Source of the DNA: Skermanella rosea
GTDB taxonomy: Bacteria > Pseudomonadota > Alphaproteobacteria > Azospirillales > Azospirillaceae
Direction: 5' to 3'
Assembly (NCBI RefSeq): GCF_016806835.2
Contig: NZ_CP086112.1
Coordinates: 514,001-578,000 of the forward strand
Length of the DNA: 64,000 bases
Part shown: piece after piece, positions 13,967 to 34,011 of the stretch
Numbering within the stretch: position 1 is the stretch's first letter
Layout: each line of letters starts with the position of its first letter
The notes under the pieces: model-generated
The model's input: only the letters and a program-made list of their open reading frames with translations
What the model was told of the DNA's origin: nothing
Database searches by the model: none
Made by a program: the position numbers and the translations under genes

Positions 13967-13983
13967 TAGTATCGGTGATACCA
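13967..13983. promoter_or_regulatory. Palindrome overlapping the start of the next gene
   Basis: TAGTATCGGTGATACCA ends 2 bp before the ATG at 13986. It contains the perfect inverted repeat GTATC-GGT-GATAC. On the complementary strand it fits TGG-N-AT-N5-AT-N-C(T)A, one mismatch from the 17-bp consensus found in the 29-32 kb antiporter cluster. A repressor bound here would block ribosome or polymerase access, so autoregulation is plausible. This is the weakest member of that site group. Confidence 0.4.
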
Positions 13984-27940: not shown

Positions 27941-27973
27941 GATCTACTCGGGATCTACTCGGGATCTACTCGG
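27941..27973. repeat. 11-bp tandem repeat x3 carrying repeated stop codons
   Basis: GATCTACTCGG is repeated exactly three times. On the minus strand each unit contains GAG-TAG. The innermost TAG is the antiporter stop codon, and two further copies lie downstream. This is probably a replication-slippage expansion of the gene end. Two units or four would leave the protein unchanged. Confidence 0.85.
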
Positions 27974-29282
27974 CGAGCGAGGCTGCCGGGCGGCTGGCCG
28001 GCGCGGTACCGCCGACGGAGTTCTCCTGCATGATCCGAGCCCTCATCGGCTTTAGGACGAACAGGGCCAGCACGGCGGCGAGCGCGTTGACGCCGGAGGC
28101 CAGCACGAAGACCATGTCCCAGCTTCCTGTCGCGGTGGCGATTACGCTGCTGATCGGGACCAGGAGGGCCGCGGTGCCCTTCGCGGTGTAGAGCAGGCCG
28201 GCGTTGGATGCCGCGTATCTGGAGCCGAAGGTGTCGCCGCAGGTCGCCGGGAACAGGCTGAAGATCTCGCCCCAGGCGAAGAACACCAAGCCGGTCAGGA
28301 ACACGAACGCCATCGGGTGATGGCCCCACTTGGCGAGCGCCAGGATACCGACCGCCTCCAGGGCGAAGGCGATGAACATGGTGTTCTCGCGGCCGATATG
28401 GTCCGAGACCCAGCCGAAGAAGGGACGCGTGACACCGTTCAGCACCCGGTCGATCGCCAGGGCGAAGGTCAGCGCCGGCAGGGTCAGGCCGACCAGCGTG
28501 ATCGGGGTTTCGGCCAGGCCGTAGTCCTTGGCGATCGGGCCGATCTGGGCGGTCGCCATCAGGCCGCCGGCCGCCACCACGGTGAACATCAGGTACATGA
28601 TCCAGAACACGGGGGTCTTCGCCATCTCGACCGGCGTATAGTCGCGTCGGCTCTGCCCCACCTTCCCCGGGCGGGCGCTCGGCAGTTCCGCGGCCCGGGG
28701 GGCGCGCAGCAGGAAGGCCAGGAGGAAGACGGAGCCGCCCTGGATCAGGCCGAACACCATGAAGGTGTGCTCGTACCCGGACGACGCGATCATGTTGGCG
28801 ATCGGGATGATGGTCAGGGCCGACCCCGCGCCGAAGCCCGCCGCCGTGACGCCGGCGGCGAAGCCGCGGCGGTCCGGGAACCACTTCAGGGCATTGCCGA
28901 CGCAGGTGCCGTAGACGGCGCCCGCGCCGATTCCGCCGACGGCCGCGGCGAAATAGAGCATCGCAAGCGAGTCCGCGACGGAATTCAGCATCCAGGCGAT
29001 GCCGCACAGCAGGCCGCCGGCGATCGTGACGATCCTGGGGCCGTAGCGGTCGACGAACCAGCCCTCGATCGGCACCAGCCAGGTTTCGGTCACGATGAAG
29101 ATGGAGAAGGCGACCTGGATTCCCGTCAGTCCCCAGCCATGCTTGGCATCCATGGGACTGACGAACAGTGTCCAGCCATATTGAAGATTGGCGACCATGG
29201 CCATGCAGATGACGCCGACGATCAGTTGCAGCCAGCGGCCGCCGGGCGGACCGCTGGTATTCGCTACCTGATTATTGAGCAT
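27966..29282 (-). CDS. OFA-family MFS antiporter (oxalate/formate type), copy 1
   Basis: A 438-aa, 12-helix MFS protein. GVICMAMVANLQYGWTLFVS, FVDRYGPRIVTIAGGL, CVGNALKWFPDRRGFAAGV and TRPFFGWVSDHIGRENTMFI are hallmark segments of the OFA (oxalate:formate antiporter) family. The known family function is exchange of oxalate for formate or related organic acids across the inner membrane; substrate here is inferred. The start at 29280-29282 has GAGGGAG 5 bp upstream. Two palindromic operator-like sites lie 102-139 bp upstream, and a terminator follows. A second copy lies at 32680-34011. Confidence 0.88.
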   Translation of the reverse strand: MLNNQVANTSGPPGGRWLQLIVGVICMAMVANLQYGWTLFVSPMDAKHGWGLTGIQVAFSIFIVTETWLVPIEGWFVDRYGPRIVTIAGGLLCGIAWMLNSVADSLAMLYFAAAVGGIGAGAVYGTCVGNALKWFPDRRGFAAGVTAAGFGAGSALTIIPIANMIASSGYEHTFMVFGLIQGGSVFLLAFLLRAPRAAELPSARPGKVGQSRRDYTPVEMAKTPVFWIMYLMFTVVAAGGLMATAQIGPIAKDYGLAETPITLVGLTLPALTFALAIDRVLNGVTRPFFGWVSDHIGRENTMFIAFALEAVGILALAKWGHHPMAFVFLTGLVFFAWGEIFSLFPATCGDTFGSRYAASNAGLLYTAKGTAALLVPISSVIATATGSWDMVFVLASGVNALAAVLALFVLKPMRARIMQENSVGGTAPASRPAASLAE

Positions 29283-29383: not shown

Positions 29384-29421
29384 TGGCATACGGTATTCTG
29401 AACTCGGAATACGAAATACCT
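29384..29421. promoter_or_regulatory. Tandem operator-like palindromes upstream of OFA antiporter 1
   Basis: Two sites fit TGG-N-AT-N5-AT-N-CCA. They are TGGCATACGGTATTCTG (29384-29400, right half degenerate) and CGGAATACGAAATACCT (29405-29421, GG/CC core perfect). Their centres are 21 bp apart, two helical turns, which would suit cooperative dimers on one DNA face. They lie about 100-120 bp upstream of the minus-strand antiporter start. Confidence 0.65.
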
Positions 29422-29586
29422 TTCGGCCCGGCCGCGCAAGGGCGCCGACCGCGAAAAACAGACTTTTCGTTCCGCTTTGCGAGAAACCTCTCCGCGATGC
29501 GGGAGAAAAGCTGGTGGCCTGCCCGGAAGCGATCTGGCCGCCCGCTTCCTGATGCCCCCTTACTGTCACCGCTCAACTCTGGTAGT

Positions 29587-29603
29587 TGGTATAACGTATG
29601 CCA
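29587..29603. promoter_or_regulatory. Operator-like palindrome upstream of the CBS-BON gene
   Basis: TGGTATAACGTATGCCA matches TGG-N-AT-N5-AT-N-CCA exactly and lies 88 bp upstream of the ATG at 29691. It is the same 17-bp architecture as the sites at 32233 and 32530. The surrounding 29283-29690 interval is non-coding and otherwise shows no gene. Confidence 0.7.
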
Positions 29604-29690
29604 GATTGCCGCCGTCATGGGCTTCAAGGCCCGGGCGATTTGCATCGAACCCAGGAAGCATCGAACTCAAGAAAACGAACGGAGGAAACG

Positions 29691-30404
29691 ATGAAGGCCG
29701 GCGACATCATGACCCGCAGCGTCATTACGATCGATGCGGACAGTACCGTCGCGGAAGCGGCGAAGCGGATGCTTGAGCACCGGATCAGCGGCATGCCCGT
29801 CGTCGACGGCCAGGGCCGCGTCATCGGCGTCATCAGCGAGGGCGACCTGTTGCGGCGGGCCGAAACCGGGACCGAGACCCAGGGCAAGGGCCGCGGCTCG
29901 TGGTGGCTCGGTCTCGTCGCGAGCGCCTCGTCGCAGGCGGACGCGTTCACCAAACAGCACGGCCGGGCCGTCCGCGACGTGATGAGCGCCAACGTGATCA
30001 GCGTCGACGAGGACGCCGCCCTCAACGAGGTGGTCGAACTGATGGAAAGCCGGCGGATCAAGCGGGTCCCGGTCACCCGCGACCGTCAGGTGGTCGGCAT
30101 CATCAGCCGGGCGAACCTGATGCGCATCCTGACGACCCTGGAACCCGGAACGGCCGCCCCGTCGGCGGACGACAAGACGATCCGCGAGCGGGTGCTGAAG
30201 GCCTACGCCGAGCAGCCCTGGGCGCCGGACTTCGGCGAGAACGTCGTGGTGAAGGACGGCGTCGTCCACCTCTGGGGCGCCGTGCGGACCGAATCCCAGC
30301 GGCAGGCGCTCGTGGTCGGCGCGCGGACTGTCCCGGGCGTCCGGGACGTCGTGGACCATATCGACGTGGTCGATCCGGTCGCGGAAGGCTTCGTGGGCTG
30401 GTAA
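29691..30404 (+). CDS. CBS-pair and BON-domain protein
   Basis: A 237-aa soluble protein. It has two CBS motifs: residues 1-60 (MKAGDIMTRSVITIDADSTV, MPVVDGQGRVIGVISEGDLL) and about 92-150 (DVMSANVISVDEDAALNEVV, IKRVPVTRDRQVVGIISRAN). A C-terminal BON domain at about 165-230 ends ARTVPGVRDVVDHIDVV. CBS pairs bind adenosyl nucleotides as energy sensors, and BON domains bind membranes or other proteins. It is likely a regulator of a transporter or enzyme, possibly the neighbouring antiporters. GGAGGAAA lies 5 bp upstream of the ATG. Confidence 0.9.
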   Translation: MKAGDIMTRSVITIDADSTVAEAAKRMLEHRISGMPVVDGQGRVIGVISEGDLLRRAETGTETQGKGRGSWWLGLVASASSQADAFTKQHGRAVRDVMSANVISVDEDAALNEVVELMESRRIKRVPVTRDRQVVGIISRANLMRILTTLEPGTAAPSADDKTIRERVLKAYAEQPWAPDFGENVVVKDGVVHLWGAVRTESQRQALVVGARTVPGVRDVVDHIDVVDPVAEGFVGW

Positions 30405-30489
30405 TCAGCACCGCCCGCCAGGGCGGCGGGTCCCGGATCGTGCGCAGGCGCGGCCCGGGAACCGCCGCGCGGGGCAGTCTCGAACGGCG

Positions 30490-30696
30490 TCAGCCGAGCT
30501 CGATCTCGCCGTCGATCTCGTGGCGCAGGTCGACGCCGTCGATGGTGAGCACGACCTTGGCCGACAGGGTCTCGCCGCCCTTGATCCGACCCGACCTGAT
30601 CGCCCGATCCACCGCGGCCTCGATCTCGCGCTGGGAGGTCACCCCGACGACCTTGAGAAACTTGCGGACTTCCATGTTGAAGGTGTCCGGATCCAT
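30490..30696 (-). CDS. Small DUF6494-like protein
   Basis: A 68-aa protein starting MDPDTFNMEVRKFLKVVGVT and continuing SQREIEAAVDRAIRSG, then a beta-rich end LSAKVVLTIDGVDLRHEIDG. This matches my recollection of the DUF6494 family, whose function is unknown. A GGGAGAAG ribosome site precedes it. It converges on the CBS-BON gene. An operator-like palindrome lies 108 bp upstream (30804-30820), which puts it in the same apparent regulon. Confidence 0.75.
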   Translation of the reverse strand: MDPDTFNMEVRKFLKVVGVTSQREIEAAVDRAIRSGRIKGGETLSAKVVLTIDGVDLRHEIDGEIELG

Positions 30697-30803
30697 CCTG
30701 TCTTCTCCCTGTCCGCCGTCGCACCGAACGGCGCTTGGTTGCTGCTTCGATAATCAACCTTGCACAAAGTCCGTGCACCGTACTACCCTCTCATTCTGGC
30801 ATG

Positions 30804-30820
30804 TGGTGTACGGTATGCAA
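30804..30820. promoter_or_regulatory. Operator-like palindrome (degenerate) between DUF6494 and NUDIX genes
   Basis: TGGTGTACGGTATGCAA keeps the 17-bp spacing of TGG-N-AT-N5-AT-N-CCA with one mismatch in each half. Its centre matches the ACGGTAT of the site at 29384. It is 108 bp upstream of the minus-strand DUF6494 gene, similar to the other sites, but overlaps the NUDIX start codon. Control of the DUF6494 gene is therefore the better reading. Confidence 0.5.
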
Positions 30821-31621
30821 AGAATACGCAAGGCACCCGACAAGGCCCCGGAGACGCGCTCCGCCCCGCGCCCGGCGGCGACCCTGATCCTGCTGCGCGA
30901 TGCGCCCGGCGGGCTAGAGACCCTGATGATCGAACGCCACGCCGGACTCGGTTTCGCCCCGGGCGCGCTGGTGTTTCCGGGGGGATGCCTCGCCGCGGAG
31001 GATCACGAGACTTCCGGAAGTTCCGGCGGCGGCGTGCATCCGGCCCGGCTGGCGGCGATCCGGGAAACCTTCGAGGAATGCGGCATCCTGCTGGCCCGGC
31101 AGCGGCATGACGGCCTCCTGCCCGATCCTGCCCGCTGTGCCGACCTGGTGGCGCGCTACCGCGCCCGGCTCCTGTCCGGCGACATCACCTTCGGCGCCCT
31201 GCTCGAGGCGGAGGGGCTGGTTCCCGCGGACGACCGCCTCGTCCCCTTCGGCCACTGGGTGACGCCGTCCGTGCGCCCCAGGCGCTTCGACACGGTCTTC
31301 TTCATCGCGGCTGTCGCCCCCGGCCAGCAGGCCGAACCCGACGGCTCGGAAATCGTGAGTTGCCGGTGGGATCGTCCGGCGAAAATCCTCGGTGAGGCGG
31401 ATGCCGGCGCGGCGCGCCTGATCTTCGCCACCCGGATGAACCTGATGCGCCTTGCCGCCAGCCGCACCGTCGCGGAGGCGGTTGAGGCGGCGATGCGGCA
31501 GCCGTTGGTCAGGATCGTGCCGGAATGGATCGAAACGCCCGACGGCGCGGAACTCCGCATACCGGAAGGGGCCGGATATGGCCCCTGCGTCGTGCCGGCC
31601 GTCCCGGCGGACCTAGCTTAG
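30815..31621 (+). CDS. NUDIX hydrolase
   Basis: A protein of about 268 aa. The NUDIX box is recognisable: GALVFPGGCLAAEDHE, then RLAAIRETFEECGILLARQ, giving the G...REx2EExG pattern that binds metal and a nucleoside-diphosphate-linked substrate. An insertion between the glycine and the REx2EE helix and the downstream FGHWVTPSVRPRRFDTVFFI resemble the NUDT19/acyl-CoA diphosphatase-like group. The ATG at 30815 has no clear ribosome site and lies in a palindrome. GTG codons at 30803 and 30806 in frame are alternatives. Confidence 0.83.
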   Translation: MQRIRKAPDKAPETRSAPRPAATLILLRDAPGGLETLMIERHAGLGFAPGALVFPGGCLAAEDHETSGSSGGGVHPARLAAIRETFEECGILLARQRHDGLLPDPARCADLVARYRARLLSGDITFGALLEAEGLVPADDRLVPFGHWVTPSVRPRRFDTVFFIAAVAPGQQAEPDGSEIVSCRWDRPAKILGEADAGAARLIFATRMNLMRLAASRTVAEAVEAAMRQPLVRIVPEWIETPDGAELRIPEGAGYGPCVVPAVPADLA

Positions 31622-31780
31622 GAAGGGGGCTTAGGAGGGGAAATGGCCGGCGCGGATGCCGCGCCTCAGAACCCCGTTCCGCCAATCGGGAAAGGGGCCG
31701 GGTAAGGAACGGAGCCGGTTGCGTTTGCCGACAGGTCCGTTGAAGATGAAACCGATAATAAGAGAGAAGTGGGAGGACGC

Positions 31781-31948
31781 GTGCAGATCAGGAAATTACG
31801 GGACGCCCCGGCGGACGGCACGCACCGGAAGGTGCTGGTCACCACCCTCTGGTTCGGTGTGCTGAGCGGGCTGTGCCACGGGGCCGTCCTGCTGCTGGCC
31901 GGATCACCCGGACCCGACCTGACGCGCATGGTCTGGACCAGCTTCTGA
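31781..31948 (+). CDS. Small single-pass membrane protein
   Basis: A 55-codon frame with a GTG start preceded by GGGAGG (31771-31776). The N-terminus is basic (QIRKLRDAPADGTHRK). It is followed by one hydrophobic helix, VLVTTLWFGVLSGLCHGAVL, and a short tail. It sits between the NUDIX gene and OFA antiporter 2, ending 4 bp from the convergent stop of another small membrane protein. Its function is unknown. Acting as a small subunit or regulator of an adjacent antiporter is a guess from position. Confidence 0.5.
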   Translation: MQIRKLRDAPADGTHRKVLVTTLWFGVLSGLCHGAVLLLAGSPGPDLTRMVWTSF

Positions 31949-31952
31949 CGGA

Positions 31953-32144
31953 TCACTCGATCCAGAACGGCCGTTCGTGGCCTTCGCCGTGCTGGGACAG
32001 CCGGTCGGATGTCCAGAAGATGCCGTCTCCCTCGTCCTCGCCGGCGGACGCGGAGAACGGCCAGGCGGAACCGGAGGTCAGGGCGTGCGTGACGAGGCCG
32101 GCGAAAGCCATGAGGGTGAGGAGGAAGTCGGAGTTCTTCAGCAT
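31953..32144 (-). CDS. Small membrane protein with acidic and aromatic tail
   Basis: A 63-aa protein. One hydrophobic helix (FLLTLMAFAGLVTHALTSGS) is followed by an acidic linker (SASAGEDEGDG) and a tail with IFWTSDRLSQHGEGHERPFW. AGGGAACC lies upstream of the ATG at 32142-32144. A perfect copy of the 17-bp palindrome lies 89 bp upstream (32233-32249), the same distance as for the CBS-BON gene. That placement supports it being real and co-regulated with the antiporters. No family was recognised. Confidence 0.6.
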   Translation of the reverse strand: MLKNSDFLLTLMAFAGLVTHALTSGSAWPFSASAGEDEGDGIFWTSDRLSQHGEGHERPFWIE

Positions 32145-32232
32145 GTTCCAGGTTCCCTTGGTCTGAGGCGGTGCGCCTGTGTCGTTTGCTGCATAGCAAC
32201 ATAAAGGCGGAGCCGAGGGACATCAAGCGGTC

Positions 32233-32249
32233 TGGAATACAGAATACCA
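32233..32249. promoter_or_regulatory. Operator-like palindrome upstream of the 63-aa membrane protein
   Basis: TGGAATACAGAATACCA is an exact TGG-N-AT-N5-AT-N-CCA match, 89 bp upstream of the minus-strand start at 32144. CTGG/CCAG extends the symmetry to 19 bp. Confidence 0.7.
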
Positions 32250-32529
32250 GAGGTCAGCCTTGCATCCACGGCAGGGCTGGCCTTGGCGCGTCCGCAAGTA
32301 AAACCCGGATGGCACCTCCCTCCGGCGTGGTATTCGGCCGCCCCATTCCAGTCCCGAACGCCCCTCCGGCCGCCCGGCCGGCGCCTGCCGGAGTCGCGGC
32401 CTAGTCGTTGGGCATACTCCTCGCCGCCGGGAATTGGTTTCTGTTTCAATCGATTGTCCGGCGCCGCTTTGGAATTCTCGTTCCGCATCGTGGAAAAATT
32501 ATAAAACCATTTGCATCGTTGTTGGTGTT

Positions 32530-32546
32530 TGGCATTCAATATACCA
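32530..32546. promoter_or_regulatory. Operator-like palindrome upstream of OFA antiporter 2
   Basis: TGGCATTCAATATACCA is an exact TGG-N-AT-N5-AT-N-CCA match, 134 bp upstream of the ATG at 32680. The AT-rich stretch just before it (32490-32528) is a likely promoter. The 535-bp interval 32145-32679 shows no convincing gene beyond these sites. Confidence 0.7.
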
Positions 32547-32679
32547 GACACCAGAGGGCGTCACGTTGTCGCAGCCGGGAACCGGGAGGTTCGGAGGCTG
32601 CCGATACGGGATCCAGACCCTCCGGAAGGACAAAAAACACCGGACCAATAGTCGTCCATCCACACGGAGGAAATGTCCG

Positions 32680-34011
32680 ATGCATACATCGGTTGATCAA
32701 CAGGGAAGGACTCGGGCTCCTGATTCCGCCCGCACGCGATGGATACAGCTCGCCGTCGGCGTGATCTGTATGGTGGCGACGGCTAACATCCAATACGCCT
32801 GGACGCTGTTCGTGCCGGAAATCCAGGCGACCTATGGATGGGCTCGCGCCTCGATCCAGGCCGCCTTCACGATCTTCGTCGTCGTCCAGACCTGGCTGAC
32901 CCCCATCGAGGGTTATTTCATCGACAAATACGGCCCGCGCGTGATGGTCGCCGTCGGCGGCGTGCTGGTCGGCCTCTCCTGGATCATCAACTCCTATGCC
33001 ACCACGCTGACCGGCTTCTATGTCGGCGCCGCGGTCGGCGGCATGGGCGTCGGCTGCGTCTATTCGACCTGCATCAACAACGCGCTGAAGTGGTTCCCGG
33101 ATCGCCGCGGCCTCGCGGTCGGCCTGACCGCCGGCGGCTACGGTGCCGGCTCGGCCCTGACCATCCTGCCGATCGCCGCCGTGATCGCGTCGAGCGGCTA
33201 CCAGAGCGCGTTCTTCTACTTCGGCGCCATCCAGGGCATCGTCATCTTCGCCGTGGCCTGGTTCCTGCGGTCGCCGCAGAAGGGCGAGGTCAAGTACTCC
33301 ACGAAGTTGTCCCAGTCCCGCCGCGACTACACGCTGGGCGAAGCCCTGCGCACCCCGGTGTTCTGGACGATGCTGGTCATGTTCACCCTGACGGTCACCG
33401 GCGGCCTGATGGCGGTCGCGCAGCTCGGCCTGATCGCCCACGACCTCGGCGTCAAGGAATTCCCGGTCAACCTCTACTTCTTCACCATGGCCGCCCTGCC
33501 CTTCGCGCTGATGCTCGACCGGGTCATGAACGGCCTGTCGCGTCCCCTCTTCGGCTGGATCTCGGACCATATCGGCCGTGAGAAGACCATGTTCATCGCC
33601 TTCACCATGGAAGGCATCGGCATCATCGCGCTGGGCTATTTCGGCCACAACCCCTACGCCTTCCTGATCCTCAGCGGCGTCGTGTTCCTGGCCTGGGGCG
33701 AAGTCTACAGCCTCTTCAGCGCCACCGCCGGCGACGCCTTCGGCACCAAGCATGTCGGCAAGATCTACGGCCTCCTGTACTGCGCCAAGGGCATCGCGGC
33801 CCTGATGGTCCCGCTCGGCAACATCCTGATGGAAGCCACCGGCACCTGGTCCACCGTGCTCTACACCGTAGCGATCATGGACCTCATGTCCGCCACCTGC
33901 GCCATCGTGATCCTGCGACCGATGCTGGCCCGCCACCACGCCCGGAACGAGCAGGAATACCGCCTCGCCAACGTCGGCCAGGCCCAGCCAGTCGGCTCGG
34001 CCACCACCTGA
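32680..34011 (+). CDS. OFA-family MFS antiporter (oxalate/formate type), copy 2
   Basis: A 443-aa, 12-helix MFS protein clearly paralogous to copy 1. It shares GVICMVATANIQYAWTLFVP, YFIDKYGPRVMVAVGGVL, INNALKWFPDRRGLAVGLTA and SRPLFGWISDHIGREKTMFI. OFA members exchange oxalate, formate or similar anions, and the actual substrate is inferred. GGAGGAAA lies 6 bp before the chosen ATG. The upstream palindrome and downstream terminator make it a single-gene unit. Divergence from copy 1 is large enough that the two may have different substrates. Confidence 0.88.
   Translation: MHTSVDQQGRTRAPDSARTRWIQLAVGVICMVATANIQYAWTLFVPEIQATYGWARASIQAAFTIFVVVQTWLTPIEGYFIDKYGPRVMVAVGGVLVGLSWIINSYATTLTGFYVGAAVGGMGVGCVYSTCINNALKWFPDRRGLAVGLTAGGYGAGSALTILPIAAVIASSGYQSAFFYFGAIQGIVIFAVAWFLRSPQKGEVKYSTKLSQSRRDYTLGEALRTPVFWTMLVMFTLTVTGGLMAVAQLGLIAHDLGVKEFPVNLYFFTMAALPFALMLDRVMNGLSRPLFGWISDHIGREKTMFIAFTMEGIGIIALGYFGHNPYAFLILSGVVFLAWGEVYSLFSATAGDAFGTKHVGKIYGLLYCAKGIAALMVPLGNILMEATGTWSTVLYTVAIMDLMSATCAIVILRPMLARHHARNEQEYRLANVGQAQPVGSATT

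Follow-up and report, generated by a model that had tools for sequence, protein, structure and literature searches.

A 17-bp palindrome beside oxalate/formate antiporter genes of Skermanella rosea as a putative operator of FCD-type GntR regulators

In Skermanella rosea, six palindromes accompany two oxalate/formate antiporter genes and their neighbors. They very probably act as operators for GntR regulators of the FCD subfamily whose genes lie beyond the window; one of these regulator genes heads an oxc-frc operon. Here, “the window” means the whole stretch of DNA that was analyzed, namely 64,000 nucleotides of contig NZ_CP086112.1 (positions 514,001 to 578,000). The initial annotation of this DNA had proposed an oxalate/formate regulon with operators of the FCD-GntR type, and this proposal gains support from the same palindrome at gntR-oxc-frc, gntR/panE, tctCBA, and gcl, as well as at loci of the regulator clade in other genera. 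The sites are non-randomly placed, and over many genera they are linked to this clade and to oxalate/glyoxylate genes. The features of the window are collected in Table 1.

Table 1. Putative operators and genes in the window
Feature	Position	Strand	Basis or remark
OFA1, oxalate/formate antiporter	27966..29282	-	NCBIfam TIGR04259, 644 bits vs cut-off 335
Putative operator TGGCATACGGTATTCTG, upstream of OFA1	29384..29400		Rank 4 of six with outside-trained matrix
Second, weaker putative operator CGGAATACGAAATACCT, upstream of OFA1	29405..29421		Rank 6 of six
Putative operator, exact, upstream of CBS-BON	29587..29603		Pattern match, matrix
CBS-BON protein	29691..30404	+	Pfam CBS and BON
DUF6494 protein	30490..30696	-	PF20104
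Putative operator, overlaps NUDIX start codon, 107 bp upstream of DUF6494	30804..30820		Matrix, top six
NUDIX hydrolase gene, alternative target of the 30804 site	30815..31621	+	PF00293
63-aa small protein	31953..32144	-	No Pfam match; start-proximal hydrophobic stretch by eye
Putative operator, exact, upstream of 63-aa gene	32233..32249		Top match of outside-trained matrix
Second conserved palindrome TTCCGC-ATC-GTGGAA	32481..32495		Its start is 49 bp upstream of that of the OFA2 operator
Putative operator, exact, upstream of OFA2	32530..32546		Pattern match, matrix
OFA2, oxalate/formate antiporter	32680..34011	+	TIGR04259, 622 bits vs cut-off 335

A check of the window letters confirms all six sites, three of them exact and three with 2 mismatches, in agreement with the three exact and three near copies annotated initially. 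The exact pattern (TGGNATNNNNNATNCCA) is both rare and clustered, with 4 copies in the 7.76-Mb genome and 3 of these within 3 kb in the window; the concern that the motif might occur at background frequency is thus not borne out by the whole-genome scan. The near copies need other evidence, since the pattern with up to 2 mismatches taken alone gives 14 matches in the window against 12.1 expected, that is, no excess over chance. With a matrix trained on five sites of the same genome beyond the window, the six sites take ranks 1 to 6 in the 64 kb (16.5–24.7 bits; the next match, at 13967, reaches 15.3 bits), although those five sites were themselves picked with window-derived patterns and the ranking test is not wholly independent. 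Conversely, when a matrix is built solely from the window sites, the known site is the best match in all four regulator contexts and also in the gcl region. The near-palindrome at 13967 recurs at L137:13575 beside a permease-like gene, and is probably the site of another regulator.

Between site and start codon lie 101 and 122 bases for OFA1, 87 for CBS-BON, 88 for the 63-aa gene, 133 for OFA2, and 107 for DUF6494; these values fit the 88–134 bp reported before. The argument from “strand-consistent placement” that went with them carries no weight, since the site is palindromic. We describe the putative operator as a 17-bp palindrome with the consensus TGGTATACNGTATACCA, often flanked by more GGTAT half-sites in 7-bp steps. 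The exact site before CBS-BON has an extra half-site, tggtagt, abutting its left edge, and the one before OFA2 is the core of an imperfect 31-bp palindrome (32523–32553, symmetric at 22 of 31 positions) with further half-sites 7 bp out.

Both antiporters pass the OxlT-type equivalog cut-off and are predicted to exchange oxalate and formate; they are 55% identical, lie 3.4 kb apart, and have one operator type. Four window operators (29587, 30804, 32233, and 32530, the last over its whole 31-bp palindrome) recur unchanged in Skermanella mucosa, where the neighboring intergenic stretches are 46–91% identical. At 29587, the flanking 87 bp on each side are 46% and 66% identical, the left side being affected by the absence of OFA1 from S. 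mucosa. The 29384 site and OFA1 are missing together in that species, and an orthologous site is present in two further Skermanella genomes (G003 and G004). The second OFA1 site, at 29405, was dropped as a conserved element, as it scores just 9.4 bits in G003 and G004 has no separate strong site. Beyond S. mucosa, G003, and G004, sites are conserved at several Azospirillum-group antiporter genes. The expectation that they be kept upstream of orthologous antiporter genes therefore holds in Skermanella; further afield, the best site at A. brasilense oxlT has just 14.9 bits, and the adjoining oxlT and gntR of M. radiotolerans have no site of at least 13 bits.

The other candidate targets in the window are less uniform. 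The 63-aa protein has related ORFs in S. mucosa, G003, and G032, and the CBS-BON protein has two paralogs with the same domains (L001:771-1460 and L053:7799-8494), which come after two of the GntR genes described below. The 30804 site contains the NUDIX ATG (30815), and the annotated NUDIX start of S. mucosa also lies inside it, so that DUF6494 is just one of two possible targets. Its membership of the regulon is doubtful: DUF6494 orthologs in three Azospirillum-group genomes (L153–L155) have no site scoring at least 9 in the stretches scanned, and three other Skermanella genomes (G001, G003, and G004) have no DUF6494 match. The tie that had been drawn between this protein and the antiporters was not borne out, and we leave it out of the regulon. 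A NUDIX gene is also found near a clade gntR at L066, and the NUDIX genes of G003 and G004 have no site directly upstream; beyond S. mucosa, NUDIX is no better supported than DUF6494 as the target.

The fourth exact site, outside the window between gntR-CBS-BON and GNAT-TSUP, led to the regulator clade. It had been suggested that a GntR-type gene be sought among those carrying the motif, and among the matches listed there are four FCD-type GntR paralogs in this genome, each at a locus with a palindrome copy (three of these copies with 2 mismatches). None of the four is in the window; the remark that no regulator gene lies there stands for them, and the regulator is present elsewhere in the genome. 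The oxc-frc operon, for oxalate degradation, has one paralog (C2:399272, L052:7252-7938) as its first gene; a second faces the gene of a panE-type reductase, and the other two come after tctCBA. Palindromes lie before gntR-oxc-frc (oxc and frc confirmed by NCBIfam), between gntR and panE, before a tctCBA-terC-gntR-CBS-BON run, before the GNAT-TSUP pair that comes after a second tctCBA-gntR-CBS-BON run, and before gcl.

In the CBS-BON-linked paralog L001:12-725, both the GntR winged-helix domain (PF00392, 40.4 bits vs cut-off 27) and the C-terminal FCD domain (PF07729, 45.7 bits vs cut-off 24.3) are found, and known FCD structures share the fold that AlphaFold2 predicts for the oxc-linked paralog (mean pLDDT 87.5). 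By alignment to TM0439, we take Asp140, His146, His190, and His212 to be the metal-binding positions of the FCD pocket. Of 16 aligned clade proteins, 11 keep all four. Among the six that stand beside CBS-BON, five have lost His190 and the sixth (L064) retains it; the five, short of one presumed metal-site histidine, may answer another signal, or none.

In other genera, clade FCD-GntR genes and the palindrome travel together beside oxalate genes. Across 59 genomes (our own included), the clade occurs in 8 and OFA relatives (at least 40% identity) in 9, with 8 shared (Fisher p 4e-9). An oxc, frc, OFA, panE, or tct gene, scored at 50% identity or more, is nearby at 46 of 47 named proteobacterial clade loci, which are partly redundant (several Bradyrhizobium), versus 0 of 33 more distant FCD-type loci. 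A Skermanella-trained matrix scores at least 17 bits somewhere in the 350 bp preceding gntR at 30 of the 47 clade loci versus 5 of the 33 controls, which are an imperfect match (mean GC 0.50 vs 0.63, more distant taxa); the remaining 17 clade loci have no such site in that interval, and with 200 permuted matrices a mean of 0.2 (largest 7) of the 47 reach 17 bits. Half-site pairs at clade loci number 38 at a gap of 5 bp (25 loci, 28 non-redundant pairs) and 0 at every other gap from 0 to 15.

Within S. rosea, the relaxed pattern GGNATACNNNATNC has 40 matches versus 4 in a reversed control, whose dinucleotides differ and whose count may be low. Twenty further regions with weak matches were read for gene context and eight of these scored: gcl (L082) 21.4, L071 and L079 18.9, L085 16.8, L084 16.4, L083 16.1, and L073 15.5, with no site of at least 14 at L081. 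Only gcl among these was accepted as having a putative operator. The sites at L071 and L079, and one at C1:4486966 (L017) that scores 22.6, are further candidates.

Could the palindromes serve no regulator at all, being instead a dispersed repeat, a terminator, or an RNA element? Their inverted-repeat form and their clustering within 3 kb would suit such an element, but the scarcity of exact copies in the genome, a core kept over many proteobacterial genera amid variable flanks and with a fixed 5-bp gap, and the placement of the sites upstream of start codons make it extremely improbable. Alternatively, the sites might be bound by another FCD-GntR protein whose operator is similar, one for TCA-cycle or organic-acid genes for example, which would make the oxalate link partly indirect. 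When 289 class genomes were scanned without bias for exact TGGNATANNNTATNCCA, 28 had a match; among 27 new loci, a clade gntR is present at L243 (59%) and a remoter relative at L241 (39%). At four of the 27, in four class genomes, the match lies 50–150 bp before sucC with no clade or related gntR within 1.5 kb; the idea that the motif is exclusive to oxalate genes was accordingly rejected. That the closest solved fold, PmiR, is not an oxalate regulator, and that the matches to the regulator listed for this genome include 15 with an E-value of at most 0.001, also speaks for a different regulator. Nevertheless, we consider it improbable: clade genes, motif, and oxalate genes co-occur over many genera, the motif precedes the clade gntR in most loci, and 460 kb around the 33 other FCD-type loci hold no gap-5 pair. 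In Paracoccus alcaliphilus, moreover, a GntR-family gene and then oxc adjoin sucCD with sites in between, which may make some of the sucC sites targets of the oxalate clade as well.

Under the reading we prefer, a dimer of the clade regulator would bind the palindrome and keep the promoter blocked as long as no metabolite of the oxalate pathway (the candidates are oxalate, oxalyl-CoA, formyl-CoA, and glyoxylate) occupies the FCD pocket. Binding of such a ligand would then co-induce OFA1 and OFA2, for oxalate/formate exchange, with the CBS-BON and 63-aa proteins in the window. Elsewhere in the genome the induced set would be oxc-frc, panE, gcl, and tctCBA. The layout of the promoters gives a hint of repression: among 60 sites, TTGAC begins 8–9 bp before the core in 8 cases and 16–17 bp before it in 5, against about 0.08 expected per offset, and mostly puts the operator in the spacer or over the −10. 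This applies to a minority of the 60, and TTGAC is absent from the printed 14-base flanks of all six window sites. That most sites do without TTGAC at repressor-like offsets favors an activator or dual regulator acting on the same operators and targets. So does the second palindrome, which lies 49–51 bp from several operators, since promoters may use two factors. Its pattern (TTCCRCNNNGYGGAA) has 7 exact copies in the genome versus 1 in the reversed control and is present in four Skermanella; the first candidate for its binder is the IclR-type gene at C2:412567. Against activation stand the positions of TTGAC where it is found and the many loci in which the site precedes the regulator's own gene, as would suit autorepression, and we regard an activating role as rather doubtful.

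More tentatively still than the operators themselves, we can imagine an old and so far unnamed proteobacterial oxalate regulon, in which several FCD-GntR paralogs with an intact or broken presumed metal pocket would compete for operators whose half-sites repeat every 7 bp, a second regulator would act on TTCCRC-N3-GYGGAA 49–51 bp away, tctCBA would provide oxalate-linked uptake, and the 63-aa protein would be an antiporter accessory. This extended picture may be right, and we lean against it as a whole. Pairing a regulator clade with a particular operator opens the control of oxalate use to direct tests, and scanning for that operator can point to new oxalate genes, with tctCBA, CBS-BON, and the small protein as candidates. 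Bacterial oxalate use has been studied in the context of kidney stones. According to excerpts of PMC12927642, it also feeds the soil oxalate-carbonate pathway.

Our searches of open-access literature gave no regulator of the proteobacterial oxc-frc pathway, and the excerpts of PMC11323563, PMC2864759, PMC5987411, and PMC12927642 do not describe a GntR regulator of oxc-frc; one may have been published elsewhere, in subscription journals or regulon databases. In the excerpted description of PMC11323563, GlcR of Paracoccus denitrificans is a GntR-family repressor in neighboring C2 metabolism (glycolate oxidase), and as such resembles the clade regulators; unlike them, it acts in glycolate rather than oxalate metabolism, and its strain shows no growth with oxalate as sole carbon source. 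Atu1419 (VanR) of Agrobacterium belongs to the same fold class at 24–26% identity, and the titles of its PDB entries (6z74/6za3) name a transcriptional repressor, one of them with palindromic DNA. The OxlT-type antiporters of TIGR04259 are matched by both OFA1 and OFA2, the window differing in its two nearby copies. The FCD-GntR protein PmiR is the best sequence and fold match to the clade regulator among solved structures. Its target is the 2-methylcitrate pathway. PmiR of Pseudomonas aeruginosa (PDB 7xp0, 7xp1) is 26–27% identical to the clade regulator, whose gene context, by contrast, is oxalate.

All six 17-bp palindromes that the initial annotation had reported beside the two oxalate/formate antiporter genes of the window, OFA1 and OFA2, were found at the places claimed. 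Its interpretation of these sites as a regulon is largely borne out, and a regulator can now be proposed, namely a clade of FCD-type GntR proteins; the link to the DUF6494 gene has been withdrawn. Taken together, the sequence evidence argues that the finding is real.

We searched the own genome with the GntR protein of C2:19289 and obtained a distinct clade, the other members of which are 48–55% identical to the query. None of the four is encoded in the window, as had been claimed of any regulator gene. Pfam supports TctC, TctB, TctA, TerC, and CBS-BON (the tct genes being tested in locus L016 only), and NCBIfam recognizes, above cut-offs, oxalyl-CoA decarboxylase, formyl-CoA transferase, glyoxylate carboligase, and both window antiporters. 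The glyoxylate carboligase gene, on contig C2, has a site ∼56 bp upstream. In Skermanella mucosa, the counterpart of the gntR-oxc-frc operon is annotated as GntR, oxc, frc, acetate-CoA ligase family, sucC, and sucD.

Coordinates and contexts of the features discussed (C, contigs of the own S. rosea genome G000 unless another genome is named; L, fetched loci)
Feature	Location	Remarks
Operators, exact	window 29587, 32233, 32530	
Operators, near copies	window 29384, 29405, 30804	2 mismatches each
OFA1	window 27966..29282, −	
OFA2	window 32680..34011, +	
Fourth exact site	C2:20778	between FCD-GntR gene with CBS-BON paralog and GNAT-TSUP pair
Clade gntR, query	C2:19289	
Clade gntR, others	C2:371411, C2:399272, C4:290103	
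Clade context 1 of 4		tctCBA-gntR-CBS-BON-site-GNAT-TSUP
Clade context 2 of 4		gntR facing panE-type reductase, site between
Clade context 3 of 4		site-gntR-oxc-frc-acyl-CoA ligase-sucC
Clade context 4 of 4		site-tctCBA-terC-gntR-CBS-BON
22.6-bit site	L017:5967 (G000:C1:4486966)	between Nramp-family gene and CitMHS-family transporter gene
Second palindrome	window 32481–32495	TTCCGC-ATC-GTGGAA, 49 bp upstream of OFA2 operator
Near-palindrome	window 13967–13983	reverse complement at L137:13575, near permease-like gene
IclR-type gene	G000:C2:412567–413319; G002:C3:4902; G003:C184:28801; G004:C14:168036	
Small protein family	window 31953–32144; L136:8205–8396; L138:6174–6536; L140:5832–6053	

A survey of named genomes gave 587 loci, of which the best 80 were divided into 47 clade loci (44–64% identity) and 33 controls (27–41%). 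Among these best 80, the clade loci include Cupriavidus, Paraburkholderia, Caballeronia, Pandoraea, Ancylobacter, Bradyrhizobium, Methylorubrum, Azospirillum, and gammaproteobacterial MAGs; oxc or frc is present in 42/47, and, with neighbors called at ≥50% identity over 60 residues, 46/47 clade loci versus 0/33 controls have one or more of oxc, frc, OFA, panE, and tct. Within 350 bp before gntR, the Skermanella-trained matrix gives a site of at least 17 bits in 30/47 clade loci (mean 0.2 for 200 permuted matrices) versus 5/33 controls, and the window-only matrix at 18 bits gives 28/47 versus 4/33, the match being weakened in that the controls are more distant, less GC-rich genomes (mean GC 0.50 vs. 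0.63). In the 692 kb of clade loci, the half-site pair TGGNAT-Ng-ATNCCA occurs 38 times at g = 5, in 25 loci (28 pairs without near duplicates), and at no other g from 0 to 15; the control loci have none at g = 5. Since the pairs are confined to this spacing, the gap is part of the signal.

Tripartite tricarboxylate transporter genes are repeatedly found beside clade gntR and oxc-frc (12/47 named loci at 50% identity); L016, L053, L168, L169, L173, L176, and others are examples of the tct-gntR neighborhood. This suggests that the transporter substrate may be oxalate-linked.

Across 59 genomes, own included, the clade regulator (≥45% identity) was present in 8, the OFA clade (≥40%) in 9, and both in 8 (Fisher 4e-9). 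The ninth OFA genome, G010, has one OFA relative without a clade regulator, and each of the two genera holding both has one genome without either (G001, G014). Plasmid pSM-2 of S. mucosa is 91.5% identical to the window over 73% of the query; all four operators present there are identical, with the neighboring intergenic stretches at 46%–91%. OFA1 and both of its operators are absent in S. mucosa, and the gene and a site are present in two other Skermanella genomes (G003, G004). Around the OFA2 operator, ∼31 bp are nearly invariant across four Skermanella species. Counted by accession, with redundant strains, relatives of OFA2 (E up to 1e-80) are on 33 plasmid records and those of the regulator (E up to 1e-45) also on 33, with 26 records carrying both. 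In Azospirillum brasilense, the genes that come after gntR-oxc are formate dehydrogenase and an IclR gene; its gntR-oxc site scores 20.2 bits (18.7 bits in S. mucosa) and its oxlT site only 14.9 bits. In Methylobacterium radiotolerans oxlT and gntR adjoin, and a matrix scan of the region gave no site at 13 bits or more.

The near copies could be due to chance, because at up to two mismatches the pattern is no commoner in the window (14 matches) than expected from shuffles (12.1). What argues against chance is the rarity of the exact pattern, with 4 copies in the whole 7.76-Mb genome and 3 of them within this 3-kb stretch, together with an outside-trained matrix, built from five own-genome sites beyond the window that neighbor oxalate-type genes or clade regulators, which places the six sites at ranks 1–6 among all 64-kb positions; this ranking is not fully independent, as the training sites came from window-derived patterns. 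A near-palindrome elsewhere in the window, TAGTATCGGTGATACCA, is probably the site of a different regulator.

Exact TGGNATANNNTATNCCA was found in 28/289 genomes of the class scanned. Among the 27 new loci retrieved, L243 has a clade gntR (59%) beside tctA, and L241 has a more distant relative (39%), the neighbors of which are tctA and an oxc-like gene of 26%. A sucC match lies 50–150 bp after the exact palindrome (near 1501; local GC 0.59–0.67) in L242, L244, L246, and L258, which have neither a clade gntR within 1.5 kb nor a distant relative; no link with the query genes was seen in the remaining 21 loci, many of which are AT-rich. The motif by itself therefore does not prove an oxalate function, and the palindrome may also serve a related regulator, possibly at the sucC sites.

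Sixty non-redundant strong sites, matrix-picked and own sites included, give the consensus TGGTATACNGTATACCA. The adjacent 7-bp unit, invisible to the matrix, fits GGTAT with at most one mismatch in 17/60 sites; at other offsets 0–3 sites do so, apart from 7 sites at offset 7 and 5 sites at offset 14, and half-sites thus tend to recur every 7 bp. At OFA2, the repeated half-sites form an imperfect 31-bp palindrome (22/31 positions). TTGAC starts 8–9 bp before the core in 8 of the 60 cases and 16–17 bp before it in 5, so that the core would fill the −35/−10 spacer or cover the −10; from this minority of sites we infer repression. The 14-base flanks of the window sites have no TTGAC at such offsets.

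The second palindrome is found in four Skermanella and has 7 exact copies in the genome. TTCC-type palindromes (0–1 mismatch) lie within 160 bp of 16/130 operators, a redundant set, versus ∼2 expected, and in several cases the distance is about 50 bp; that beside the 22.6-bit site (1 mismatch) is 51 bp away. A candidate binder is the product of the IclR-type gene. In four Skermanella genomes, this gene is separated by ∼13 kb from the gntR-oxc-frc operon (in G002 across the plasmid origin), and it is 27–29% identical to an Azospirillum-group IclR protein that is encoded next to gntR-oxc in L070. In Skermanella and G032, the small protein family is encoded next to OFA genes; its members have TSDR[LF] in common and, in 3/4, RPFW[IL]E at the end, and the window copy has no Pfam match.

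Modeled with AlphaFold2 (mean pLDDT 87.5), the oxc-linked paralog best matches PmiR and VanR/Atu1419, with TM0439 among the top matches. By alignment with TM0439, we take Asp140, His146, His190, and His212 to be the putative metal-site residues; all four are kept in 11/16 aligned clade proteins. His190 is lost in 5/6 aligned paralogs beside CBS-BON, two of which also lack His146, and the sixth (L064) keeps all four. These five might have a different signal, or no signal at all.

No report of the proposed regulator or operator was found in our searches of open-access literature, where absence is weak evidence. The kind of system, a GntR/FCD regulon, is already known, and its identity, breadth, and operator seem to be new.
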